A stretch of 7,955 nucleotides of DNA, taken from assembly GCA_003696125.1 (NCBI GenBank), contig RFHZ01000346.1, positions 1 to 7,955 of the forward strand. Reading direction: 5' to 3'. The notes beneath the pieces were generated by a model. The model saw only the letters and a list, made by a program, of their open reading frames with translations. It was not told where the DNA came from and did not search any database. Both the position numbers and the translations under genes were made by a program. Shown here piece after piece: positions 2,977 to 6,111 of this stretch (position 1 is its first letter; each line of letters starts with the position of its first letter). The stretch is from Nitrospinota bacterium (GTDB taxonomy: Bacteria > Tectomicrobia > Entotheonellia > J063).

Positions 2977-3471
2977 CTAATGGGGTTCCCGCCTTTTCCC
3001 CGTCTTGAGATAGTAGTTGATGGCTTCTTCCCAATCTCTGAGGTCATAAGCATACATCGATTGGAGAGCCTTTTCATTCATGGCGTTGCCCTTGCCGGTT
3101 AGTCCGGTATATGTGTACGTAATCTCCGCTTTGGTGATTTGATTCGGAATATCTTCCCAGCATCGGATAGTAATCCACCACAATCTTTCCGGCGTAAAGA
3201 CCGTATACTCGATGAGTGCTTGGTCAGGCAGATATTTTGATACTGTCCAGATATAGTCAGGTTCGCCGTGCCCCTGTTGGGATGGCGTTTTGAAAACCAT
3301 ATGTTCTTCCACCTGACCTGTGGTGGGGTAGAGTATCTGAGGATTCCATCCAGCAGCCCATTCTTTTTCTGCTATGGGGCCGAACAACGGGAATACGTCC
3401 TTTAGCGGGGCATTTAGAGTGATGATACTTGTTTTTGAGATTCTTCTCGATGTAAGAGATGAAGTGGTCAT
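2977..3471 (-). CDS. SRPBCC-fold (START/polyketide-cyclase-like) family protein
   Basis: This small soluble protein of 164 residues has the pattern of the SRPBCC helix-grip fold, which forms a deep pocket for hydrophobic ligands. After about a dozen residues comes the opening strand and helix (ITLNAPLKDVFPLFGPIAEKEWAAGW), typical of subfamily members with PLFGP-EKEW-GW. Later come VFKT, YIWTVSKYLPDQALIEYTVFTPE and AEITYTYTGLTGKG, and a long C-terminal helix (ALQSMYAYDLRDWEEAINYYLKTG). The ligand cannot be told, and no signal peptide is present. The ATG at 3471 has GGAGAG ending four bases before it. The frame is open up to 3555, but those extra 28 codons run through the attC-like site and are probably not translated. 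It appears to be a cassette gene whose downstream recombination site has been lost. The fold assignment is firm; the function is unknown. Confidence 0.82.
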   Translation of the reverse strand: MTTSSLTSRRISKTSIITLNAPLKDVFPLFGPIAEKEWAAGWNPQILYPTTGQVEEHMVFKTPSQQGHGEPDYIWTVSKYLPDQALIEYTVFTPERLWWITIRCWEDIPNQITKAEITYTYTGLTGKGNAMNEKALQSMYAYDLRDWEEAINYYLKTGKRREPH

Positions 3472-3507: not shown

Positions 3508-3568
3508 GTCTAACGTGTGACTCAGCGGTAGTGGCGTAGCCGCTGTCCACTGCATCGGCTTGTTAGGC
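3508..3568 (-). other. Integron attC-type recombination site (61 bases)
   Basis: On the minus strand the site begins with GCCTAAC (3568-3562), fitting the attC R'' consensus RYYYAAC. It ends with GTTAGAC (3514-3508), fitting the R' consensus GTTRRRY, whose G/TT junction is where an integrase would cut. The boxes pair with six of seven matches. Inside, CAGTGG pairs with CCGCTG with one G-T wobble, flanking a GGC-TAC-GCC tip, so the bottom-strand hairpin used by integron integrases can form. The 61-base length is within the known range. The site starts six bases after the stop codon of the membrane-protein gene and lies 36 bases before the next start codon, the usual cassette layout. A covariance-model search would settle it. 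Confidence 0.8.
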
Positions 3569-3574
3569 CGCCTG

Positions 3575-4522
3575 TCAGAACATCAGCCAGAACAGCAGCT
3601 TCTCGAGCCACCCCCGGTACACGCTGTTTAGGTCCTCCAAACGGGGATCATCTGACCATACAGACCAGGTCCAAACAGCCTGGTATGGAAAAAACCAGCC
3701 TCTTTCCTGTAGCACCCAAAAAAGTCCTTCGTCAATGACGATCTTACGACCTCGCAGACTCCTAAAGAGCATCAACTTATATTTCCTCGAGTACTCAATA
3801 CGCACAGTTCCGCGCAACTTCAGAAGCCACCTGTCGCCATGCTTGATGGCGTGACCAGTAATAGTAAACGGATTAAGTGCAAGCGCTGTACGGATAGACT
3901 CATGGCGAGGATTGTAGGACCATCCGATCCTGTATTTCCGGAGCTTATAATCTGTCTGGCCCGATCTGCGGGCTTCTCTCAACATCTCCGCAAGGACCCG
4001 ACGGACTTTCGGAGACCTCATCGGCATATCTGAAGCCCATTGGCGCTCGTTGGGACCAGGAATGGCCAGAAGGAGGGTTTCAGCAGCGACTTCGCGAAAC
4101 CCGGCCAGCCATCCACCAGCCGCCATCCCGATGTTAAGAGTCCAGATCCCGGCCAACTCTATTGTTGAAAAGGTATTGGGTCCCTCTATCTTCTTGCGTG
4201 ATAAATACTCCACACGATCTGCGTATTCGTGGAAGGGCACATACCACCCTAGAATTGTAGCGGCGATGACAAGGAGCAGAGCTATCCATCTTACAAGGCG
4301 CAATCTCCTGAAGCGCCACACGGCCAAACAGAAGCCCAGTAAAGCCGTGAAGATTGGAGTTATCCGCAGTCCGAACGTGAGCATGCCTAGGGTGATTATT
4401 ACCAGGAGAAGCACTGCACCCCACCGCATGCTCTCGGTTACAAAGGCGAGTATCCTCCAGATTTTTCGATCAGGACCTCCTGGATCTGGTTTGCTCTTAT
4501 CGCATGTCAAGGACTGTCGCAC
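3575..4522 (-). CDS. Unrecognised membrane protein, probable integron cassette gene
   Basis: I do not recognise this 315-residue protein. Its N-terminal third is hydrophobic, with helices at about 34-54, 56-70 and 79-94, and a weaker one near 123-143. The middle contains a basic stretch (PMRSPKVRRVLAEMLREARR, about 167-186). The C-terminal half looks soluble, with alternating strand-like segments (KYRIGWSYNPRHES, WLLKLRGTVRIEYSRKYKLMLFR) and many tryptophans and tyrosines, ending GWLEKLLFWLMF. This suggests a membrane-anchored cytoplasmic or surface domain. The GTG at 4522 has GTGGAG ending seven bases before it; the ATG at 4429, directly before the first helix, is an alternative with a poorer ribosome site. 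An attC-type site follows the stop codon by six bases, and an attC-like R' box lies 33 bases upstream, so the gene fills a cassette of about 1.05 kb. Its base composition is lower in GC than the flanking operons. Confidence 0.78.
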   Translation of the reverse strand: MRQSLTCDKSKPDPGGPDRKIWRILAFVTESMRWGAVLLLVIITLGMLTFGLRITPIFTALLGFCLAVWRFRRLRLVRWIALLLVIAATILGWYVPFHEYADRVEYLSRKKIEGPNTFSTIELAGIWTLNIGMAAGGWLAGFREVAAETLLLAIPGPNERQWASDMPMRSPKVRRVLAEMLREARRSGQTDYKLRKYRIGWSYNPRHESIRTALALNPFTITGHAIKHGDRWLLKLRGTVRIEYSRKYKLMLFRSLRGRKIVIDEGLFWVLQERGWFFPYQAVWTWSVWSDDPRLEDLNSVYRGWLEKLLFWLMF

Positions 4523-4535
4523 CGGCGGTCTCCAC

Positions 4536-4549
4536 AGGGGCTTGCCCCT
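4536..4549. repeat. Short GC-rich palindrome (AGGGGC-TT-GCCCCT)
   Basis: A perfect 14-base inverted repeat with a two-base loop. On the minus strand it directly precedes the GTGGAG ribosome site (4535-4530) of the membrane-protein gene, so a hairpin here could affect translation initiation. Its arms match the outer part of the 28-base palindrome at 100-127, suggesting a shared repeat family. Any regulatory role is inference. Confidence 0.65.
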
Positions 4550-4555
4550 CGATCC

Positions 4556-4729
4556 ATCTAACAGTTCAGTAAGTATAATCTTTTAGAAACCATAGGAATA
4601 GAAGGCTCTGAAATTAGATATCACTCCATCATCCTCTTTTTTTCTCATTTGGCTCATTGTAGAGTAGCTTTCTAGAAAATTCAAGTCTTTTTAACTCTTC
4701 ATATCTACTGTCACACCGGACTGTTAGAT
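4556..4729. repeat. AT-rich 174-base segment bounded by inverted repeats with attC-like ends
   Basis: The left end ATCTAACAGT (4556-4565) and the right end ACTGTTAGAT (4720-4729) are perfect 10-base inverted repeats, and pairing continues imperfectly for several more bases. The ends fit both integron box consensuses (RYYYAAC and GTTRRRY). The left box, read on the minus strand as GTTAGAT (4562-4556), sits 33 bases before the GTG of the membrane-protein gene, nearly the same offset as the attC-type site has to its own downstream gene. The interior is clearly AT-rich and has no gene. At 174 bases it is longer than usual attC sites. It could be an unusually long or decayed attC, an attI remnant, or a small non-autonomous transposable element. 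No target duplication beyond a trivial AT is visible. Confidence 0.5.
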
Positions 4730-4974
4730 AGAACTATTCCTATTTCTCTACATCAAGATCCTGGGAAAAGCCGTTGGGAGAGATCGGGACCTATGCAAAG
4801 CCGCAACAACGCTGGCGACTACCTGTGGTATGTGGCCTGCGCATTTTCTCTCCCTCCTTTCAGCAACAGGGATACCACAGGAGCGTCCTTATTTTGCAAA
4901 ATCCCTCTCCTCCTGTTACAATCCTTTAGAGAAAATCCCAGGCGATACCCCTCTGAGCAGACCAGGATACGACA
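4730..4974. other. Intergenic region upstream of the RNA methyltransferase gene
   Basis: With the segment at 4556-4729 this makes a gap of about 450 bases between divergent genes. A perfect 10-base inverted repeat, CCTGTGGTAT (4822-4831) with ATACCACAGG (4872-4881), spans a 40-base loop just upstream of the candidate promoter. A second 10-base repeat pairs 4592-4601 (ATAGGAATAG) with 4734-4743, crossing the right end of the AT-rich segment. A small plus-strand frame (4793-4990) runs into the methyltransferase start, has no good ribosome site and shows no recognisable protein features, so it is left out. I see no RNA gene. Confidence 0.5.
4894..4922 (+). promoter_or_regulatory. Candidate promoter of the methyltransferase/oxidoreductase genes
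   Basis: TTGCAA (4894-4899, four of six matches to -35) and TACAAT (4917-4922, five of six to -10) are 17 bases apart. A TG one base before the -10 box makes it an extended -10. The start point would be near 4929, leaving a leader of about 46 bases before the ATG at 4975. The -35 overlaps a 10-base palindrome TTTTGCAAAA (4892-4901). The prediction rests on sequence match alone. Confidence 0.6.
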
Positions 4975-6111
4975 ATGGAGGCGGAAGTGACCATTCATGA
5001 TGTGGCCTTTGGGGGGGCTGGAGTAGGGCGACTCCCGGATGGCAAGATCGTCTTTGTCCCGTATACCATCACAGGAGAAACGGTACGTATTCGTATCACC
5101 AGCTCGACCAGGGACTTTGCCCGGGCCGAGCTGCTCACCGTTCTCATCCCCTCTCCACACCGTGTCTCTCCCCCCTGTCCCTATTTTGGTCGTTGTGGGG
5201 GGTGTGCCTACCAGCATATCGCCTATGAGGAGCAGGTGAGGATCAAAGTCAAACAGCTTCGCGATATGCTGACCCGCATCGGAAAATGCAACCTCCTTCC
5301 CCCTATCCATGTGGAAGCTGCTCCTCATCCGTACGGATACCGGAACAAGATCGTGGTCCATCGAGGACCGGTCGGCCAGATCGGGTTCTATGCCACCGAT
5401 CACCGGACGGTTATCGATATTGAGCAGTGTCTGATCGCCAGCCAGGCGGTCAATACCCGTCTTATGGCCGTGCGTCACTCCTCAAGAGTACCCCGTCACC
5501 TGGAGATCTCTGATCCGGAACAGCGGGCCGGAACACCACCGGGAAGTTTTTATCAGGTGCACACCGCCATGGCACACCGACTGCTGGCCTGGATACGTAC
5601 ACAGGTTCTGGAACAGGAGGCAGCCACCCTGGTCGATCTCTACTGCGGTGCCGGGTTTTTCTCACTGGGAATGGCCGATATTTTTGCCAGCGTATACGGG
5701 ATTGATCGAGACGCGCAGGCGATTCAGAGAGCCCAGATGCAGTCCCAAGGGGCTGAGCATGTCCACTTCTCTGCCTCTACCGTAGAGGAGGGGCTCGATG
5801 CGATTTTCGCAAAGCCGTTACCCGCACCGATCACCCTGCTTGTCGATCCTCCCCGGGAAGGGGTGGATAAGAGGGTGATCACCCGTCTCGGCCAGAGAGG
5901 AGACATGACCCAGTTGATCTATGTCTCCTGTAATCCGGCAACCCTGGCCCGGGACCTGCAGCGGTTTCTGCAGGCGGCTGAACAGGACTCGTCTCCCGGT
6001 CGATACCGGCTGGTGGCCCTGGGACTCTTTGACATGTTTCCTCAAACCGCGCATATCGAAGCCGTGGCCATCGTACGCCGGGAGTCAAGTCATGAAACAG
6101 GGCGTCTTTAA
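4975..6111 (+). CDS. TrmA/RlmD-family RNA (uracil-C5) methyltransferase, short form
   Basis: This 378-residue protein should methylate C5 of a uridine in rRNA or tRNA using S-adenosylmethionine. An N-terminal TRAM-type RNA-binding domain (about 1-58, AFGGAGVGRLPDGKIVFVPYTITGE) is followed by a 4Fe-4S ligand set at Cys68, Cys74, Cys77 (CPYFGRCGGC) and Cys152. GSFYQVH (190-196), the SAM loop DLYCGAGFFSL (221-231), DPPREGV (291-297), the nucleophile Cys319 in YVSCNPATLARDL, and FPQTAHIE with base Glu362 are all present, so it looks catalytically complete. It is shorter than the usual 430-460 residues: the segment between about 165 and 190 lacks most of the central domain seen in RlmD. The ATG at 4975 starts directly at the TRAM domain with a modest AGGA site. 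Which uridine is modified cannot be told. It probably leads an operon with the oxidoreductases 12 bases downstream. Confidence 0.92.
   Translation: MEAEVTIHDVAFGGAGVGRLPDGKIVFVPYTITGETVRIRITSSTRDFARAELLTVLIPSPHRVSPPCPYFGRCGGCAYQHIAYEEQVRIKVKQLRDMLTRIGKCNLLPPIHVEAAPHPYGYRNKIVVHRGPVGQIGFYATDHRTVIDIEQCLIASQAVNTRLMAVRHSSRVPRHLEISDPEQRAGTPPGSFYQVHTAMAHRLLAWIRTQVLEQEAATLVDLYCGAGFFSLGMADIFASVYGIDRDAQAIQRAQMQSQGAEHVHFSASTVEEGLDAIFAKPLPAPITLLVDPPREGVDKRVITRLGQRGDMTQLIYVSCNPATLARDLQRFLQAAEQDSSPGRYRLVALGLFDMFPQTAHIEAVAIVRRESSHETGRL

Follow-up and report, generated by a model that had tools for sequence, protein, structure and literature searches.

Genes and features of the locus

The window, by which we mean the whole stretch of 7,955 nucleotides that was analysed, carries a short array on its minus strand in the order promoter leader, GTTAGAT core, ORF B, attC site and ORF A (Table 1). 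The core is located 33 nt ahead of the ORF B start, the attC site begins 6 nt beyond the ORF B stop codon (3577-3575), and ORF A, which has a GGAGAG ribosome site, follows 36 nt behind the R' box of the attC site with its ATG at 3471. Since the core, ORF B and the attC site stand in this order, they form a canonical cassette of about 1048 bp (about 3514-4561). On one side the array is bordered by genes for an ABC transporter and a family-5 solute-binding protein, and on the other side by genes for a TrmA/RumA-type RNA methyltransferase (TrmA gene at 4975) and two Gfo/Idh/MocA oxidoreductases. The GC contents of the cargo genes are 0.47 and 0.52, compared with 0.58-0.62 for the neighbouring genes.

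Table 1. Features of the array and related features on other contigs of the same assembly
Feature	Location	Strand	Description and basis
attC site	3508-3568	minus	Covariance model R1, geometry match to attCs upstream of intI, shuffled windows
ORF B	3575-4522	minus	315 aa; cargo of cassette 1; open frame
Core site GTTAGAT (GTTRRRY)	4556-4562	minus	Left boundary of cassette 1; sequence
ORF A	2977-3471	minus	164 aa; second cassette-like gene
AT-rich leader element, putatively attI/Pc-like	4574-4697	minus	Second genomic copy and promoter scan; reads towards ORF B
intI	L002 93-1157 (contig C988)		Complete-looking; extended N-terminus, frame runs off contig start
Second attC of the genome	L148 2552-2624 (contig C344)		R1 26.9 bits, E 0.02 genome-wide; weaker

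The survey of the window ORFs found no integrase, which bears out what the original prediction had claimed. As ordinary genes flank both ends of the array within the contig, the missing intI is not an artefact of a contig end. A complete integron has intI adjoining attI and the cassettes, and here ordinary genes are found on both sides instead. The order of the flanking genes is not conserved in the relatives G001-G004. At the contig start, the window also contains 14.6 tandem copies of the 7-base unit AGTAATG (1-102) and, at 102-149, a palindromic GGGGCGCAGC-GCTGCGCCCC element with two more copies on contig C752, an intergenic repeat dispersed in this genome.

Structure of the attC site

The site comprises 61 nt and reads, on the minus strand from 3568 to 3508, GCCTAAC AAGCCGATG CAGTGGA C...A CCGCTG AGTCACAC GTTAGAC. 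At its outer ends, the R'' box GCCTAAC (3562-3568) matches RYYYAAC and the R' box GTTAGAC (3508-3514) matches GTTRRRY. The inner elements follow the attC order, with a 9-nt spacer behind R'', the L'' arm CAGTGG with an extrahelical A, a loop, the L' arm CCGCTG and an 8-nt spacer in front of R'. The two arms form five Watson-Crick pairs and one T.G wobble, and the wobble corresponds to a C.A mismatch on the recombining bottom strand. The original prediction had described outer boxes that fit the R''/R' consensuses, internal arms that pair, a total of 61 bases and distances of 6 nt to one stop codon and 36 nt to the next start, and re-reading of the sequence agreed with it on every one of these points.

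In order to compare the site with known ones, we built a covariance model (R1) from 26 attC sites, all of them from other genomes, with the 3508-3568 site excluded. The source of the model was a set of 80 intI loci, drawn from named genomes and related to the integron integrase of this genome, in which the attCs upstream of intI were taken in cassette orientation. These attCs share a constant layout: a 9-nt spacer separates R'' from L'', the L'' arm has an extrahelical base that is A in most cases, and behind the loop and L' a spacer of 8 to 9 nt leads to R'. The layout of the 3508-3568 site is identical. When R1 was run against the window, the site scored 39.7 bits on the minus strand (E 4.9e-8) and 11 bits only on the plus strand, and in the whole draft genome of 4.18 Mb it ranked first with an E-value of 2.6e-5; the E-values of R1 are rough. 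Sites in 21 integron loci next to intI scored about 20-62 bits with the same model. The covariance-model check that the original prediction had named was thus positive.

For comparison, R1 was run on about 54 Mb of sequence from 12 genomes that have no complete intI; G001, with its broken intI, had been set aside. Among the candidates scored, at most 150 per genome, scores of at least 39.7 bits occurred in one genome alone, G062, and because a second attC on the same strand lies 0.9 kb from the G062 match, that match probably belongs to a real array. The two G062 attCs (L168 3848-3907 and 4804-4862) have no complete intI and are probably a CALIN, a cluster of attC sites lacking an integron integrase.

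A chance palindrome or a terminator between two ordinary genes would have to be considered at such a place. The pattern GCCTAAC-N(40-70)-GTTAGRY has one match in the genome against three for a backward control pattern, so that the R-box pair by itself does not exceed chance and is not significant, and the folding energy of the site is unremarkable against shuffles (z -1.0 and -1.3); both of these results are what a chance palindrome would give. It is contradicted by the full geometry, for which strict matching found one match in the real window and one in 3000 dinucleotide-shuffled windows, by the strand-specific, genome-wide score of an independent covariance model, and by the position of the site directly behind a stop codon and in gene orientation. 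We therefore regard a chance origin as highly improbable, and 3508-3568 is a genuine integron attC. Short motif reading can find true attCs provided that the spacers and the L-box geometry are checked as well, since R boxes by themselves do no better than chance. An Rfam scan of the whole window gave zero matches.

Genes of the array

ORF B has hydrophobic helices near its N-terminal end and is predicted to be an orphan membrane protein. Comparison with Pfam, NCBIfam and PHROG assigned it to no family, and no relative was found in the PDB, plasmids, viral contigs or about 290 genomes. A fold prediction of ORF B was too poor (pLDDT 47) and was discarded.

Homologs of ORF A were found in three of about 290 genomes, with a 58% homolog in G062, which alone represents its phylum in the collection searched; a search for ORF A in that phylum accordingly reached no genome but G062. 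Plasmids gave no match to ORF A and viral contigs gave one weak fragment of 46%. Neither ORF A nor ORF B was found in the four same-class genomes searched. The single-sequence AlphaFold model of ORF A reached a pLDDT of 66, and the Foldseek matches listed were all START/SRPBCC/Bet v1-like, suggesting tentatively that ORF A likely adopts a START/SRPBCC (Bet v1-like) fold.

R1 detected a single attC in the window and contig, with no match behind ORF A (2768-2976), and the search around the ORF A homolog in G062 likewise gave no attC. The G062 attCs and this homolog, the closest one to ORF A, are in the same genome and are not adjacent. We infer that ORF A arrived in the form of a cassette and that its own attC decayed or was lost.

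Integron integrases and attC sites elsewhere

An integron integrase is encoded on contig C988 of the same assembly. It scores 436.9 bits with TIGR02249 (cut-off 265), has the tyrosine-recombinase catalytic residues R/K/HxxR/H/Y, and contains the IntI-specific insertion (LERKYPHIATEWGWQYVFP...DPRSGQVRRHH), which is absent from the Xer-type recombinase of the genome. Since C988 starts inside the intI frame, the attI site and any adjoining cassettes would lie beyond the contig edge. RsmI- and NAD-synthase-like genes are located downstream of intI on this contig. Here, we need to consider that the genome is a MAG of 990 contigs with 94.8% completeness and 8% contamination, so that the co-residence of the IntI and array contigs in one organism is likely rather than certain.

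The second attC of the genome, on C344, has the same L'' (CAGTGGaC) as the 3508-3568 site and is followed by an M35-type (Aspzincin) metallopeptidase-domain gene. Within the same class, G004 holds three full-length or nearly full-length IntI loci with at least 49 attCs (loci L118-L146), and in G001 at least two attCs adjoin an intI that a stop codon interrupts (L176).

The presence of an IntI in the genome bears on a possible off-target insertion, in which IntI acting in trans would have placed one or more cassettes at a non-classical GTT site of the attG type between the operons. Insertion at attG is well established as a route for cassettes (Loot 2024, cited in PMC11023631, PMC12444791 and PMC12901181), and the boundaries at 4562/4561 and 3514/3513 fit G/TT recombination. 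A naive target, on the other hand, is not expected to share a promoter leader at two loci, as is found here (see below). We consider such an insertion a possibility that falls short of being probable.

The leader element

Upstream of the core lies a promoter-bearing leader that had escaped the original prediction. Its GC content over 4556-4699 is 0.31, and a sigma-70-like promoter is predicted in it, with TTGAAT (4684-4679) and TACAAT (4661-4656) separated by 17 nt. A second copy of the leader was found on contig C752 at 10028-10154, or 10022-10150 (L166 6023-6151) in a slightly different delimitation, with a 78% match and with TTGACT-17-TACAAT at the same place. Both copies are positioned just upstream of a GTTRRRY core, which is GTTAGGC on C752, and the two loci then diverge, into ORF B in the window and a hicBA toxin-antitoxin pair on C752. 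The similarity of the copies fades about 10-15 nt before the core, as judged from these two loci only. Each copy holds a short ORF that starts with ATGAG right at the -10 box.

A sequence-only model of the leader, run on the genome, on four relatives of the same class and on 84 other loci, found no further copies, and no attC was found behind hicBA on C752. Direct repeats of about 240 bp, 97% identical (L166 5787-6025 and 6814-7052), bracket the segment of leader, core and hicBA on C752, an arrangement suggestive of a duplication or of homologous recombination. We also considered whether 4556-4731, with its 10-bp inverted repeat ATCTAACAGT/ACTGTTAGAT, could be read as one long attC. This reading was rejected, as the segment has no canonical L boxes and no R1 match, and its fold is weaker than that of shuffles (z +1.3).

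We put forward the hypothesis that the leader is attI/Pc-like, possibly integrase-free. If it were a true attI/Pc, the locus could be a degraded chromosomal integron, in which an intI once stood beside the leader and was lost, leaving attI/Pc and two cassettes. The predicted promoter is located about 90 nt before the core, like a Pc-attI arrangement (the cassette transcript of Vibrio cholerae begins 65 bp upstream of attI; PMC3948777), the leader is conserved to about 10-15 nt before the core with different cassettes beyond, and degradation of integrons has been put forward as the origin of CALINs (PMC9024848). However, the stretch that separates the leader from the TrmA gene gave no sign of a former intI, the loss of one intI does not explain a leader at two unrelated places, and the IntI contig C988 breaks off before its attI. 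Degradation of this kind is conceivable, and we give it and the attG-type insertion equal weight.

Origin of the array

We suggest that 3508-3568 is very probably the attC of the cassette that carries ORF B, within a short integron array that has no integrase beside it. In this proposal, an integron integrase, most simply the IntI on C988, would act in trans on the array: it would fold the bottom strand of the attC and recombine it at the G/TT core beside the leader, where the ORF B cassette would stay. The leader promoter, if active, would then transcribe ORF B and subsequently ORF A. The points that speak against this proposal are the one attC on the contig, the C.A mismatch of the bottom strand, the ordinary folding energy, the position of IntI on a different contig of a MAG with 8% contamination, and the flanking gene order, which offers no empty site for comparison. 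The original prediction had proposed a cassette remnant free of integrase, inserted between two housekeeping operons, and this reading is supported by the R1 result, the rarity of the two ORFs and the ordinary outer genes. The lack of a local integrase stood. Three refinements have to be made, namely that the genome has an IntI on another contig, that the locus, with one attC, is not a CALIN in the strict sense, and that it also carries the leader with its GTTRRRY core.

A further and rather unlikely idea is that the leader and its GTTRRRY core constitute a free-standing landing site, present in at least two chromosomal copies without an integrase and served by IntI in trans, at which single cassettes (ORF B in the window and hicBA on C752) would be taken up and expressed at a distance from the main integron. 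If this were true, integrons would have satellite capture sites, which would bear on cassette expression and on fixation outside the main array. It should be noted that, for integrons other than those of class 1, good descriptions of attI sites are scarce (PMC9024848). Whatever its role, the duplicated leader may be the sole unusual feature of the locus, and the array adds an integron-bearing lineage with uncharacterised cargo.

Comparison with known integron elements

We compared the elements of the locus with known systems. First, the attC site resembles the attC (59-be) of integron cassettes in its R and L boxes, its 9- and 8-nt spacers, its length and its position directly behind a gene in the same orientation, and its L'' likewise has an extrahelical A, which is T on the bottom strand. 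It differs from 59-be in the one T.G pair of the L stem, which is C.A on the bottom strand, and in its short apical stem. Second, the leader differs from attI/Pc in that it has no adjacent intI, occurs at two loci and shows no sequence relation to the IntI loci compared, but it is similar to attI/Pc and to the delta-attI cassettes known in mobile integrons (PMC12901181) in having a predicted promoter upstream of a GTTRRRY core before the first cassette. Finally, the array as a whole is comparable to the well-described CALINs (PMC9024848), with cassette genes and an attC between chromosomal genes and no neighbouring intI. Unlike a CALIN, it has one attC only. IntegronFinder 2 takes two attCs as its default, and single-attC cases are stated to be possibly real (PMC9024848); measured against this default, the locus is a single-attC integrase-less array rather than a strict CALIN. 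In Xanthomonas genomes, CALINs are found away from the intI locus (PMC12444791), and the array resembles those distant from the ilvD locus in that intI is located elsewhere in the assembly. As a remnant of mobile genes, the locus belongs to a kind that is already known, to which it adds a new case.
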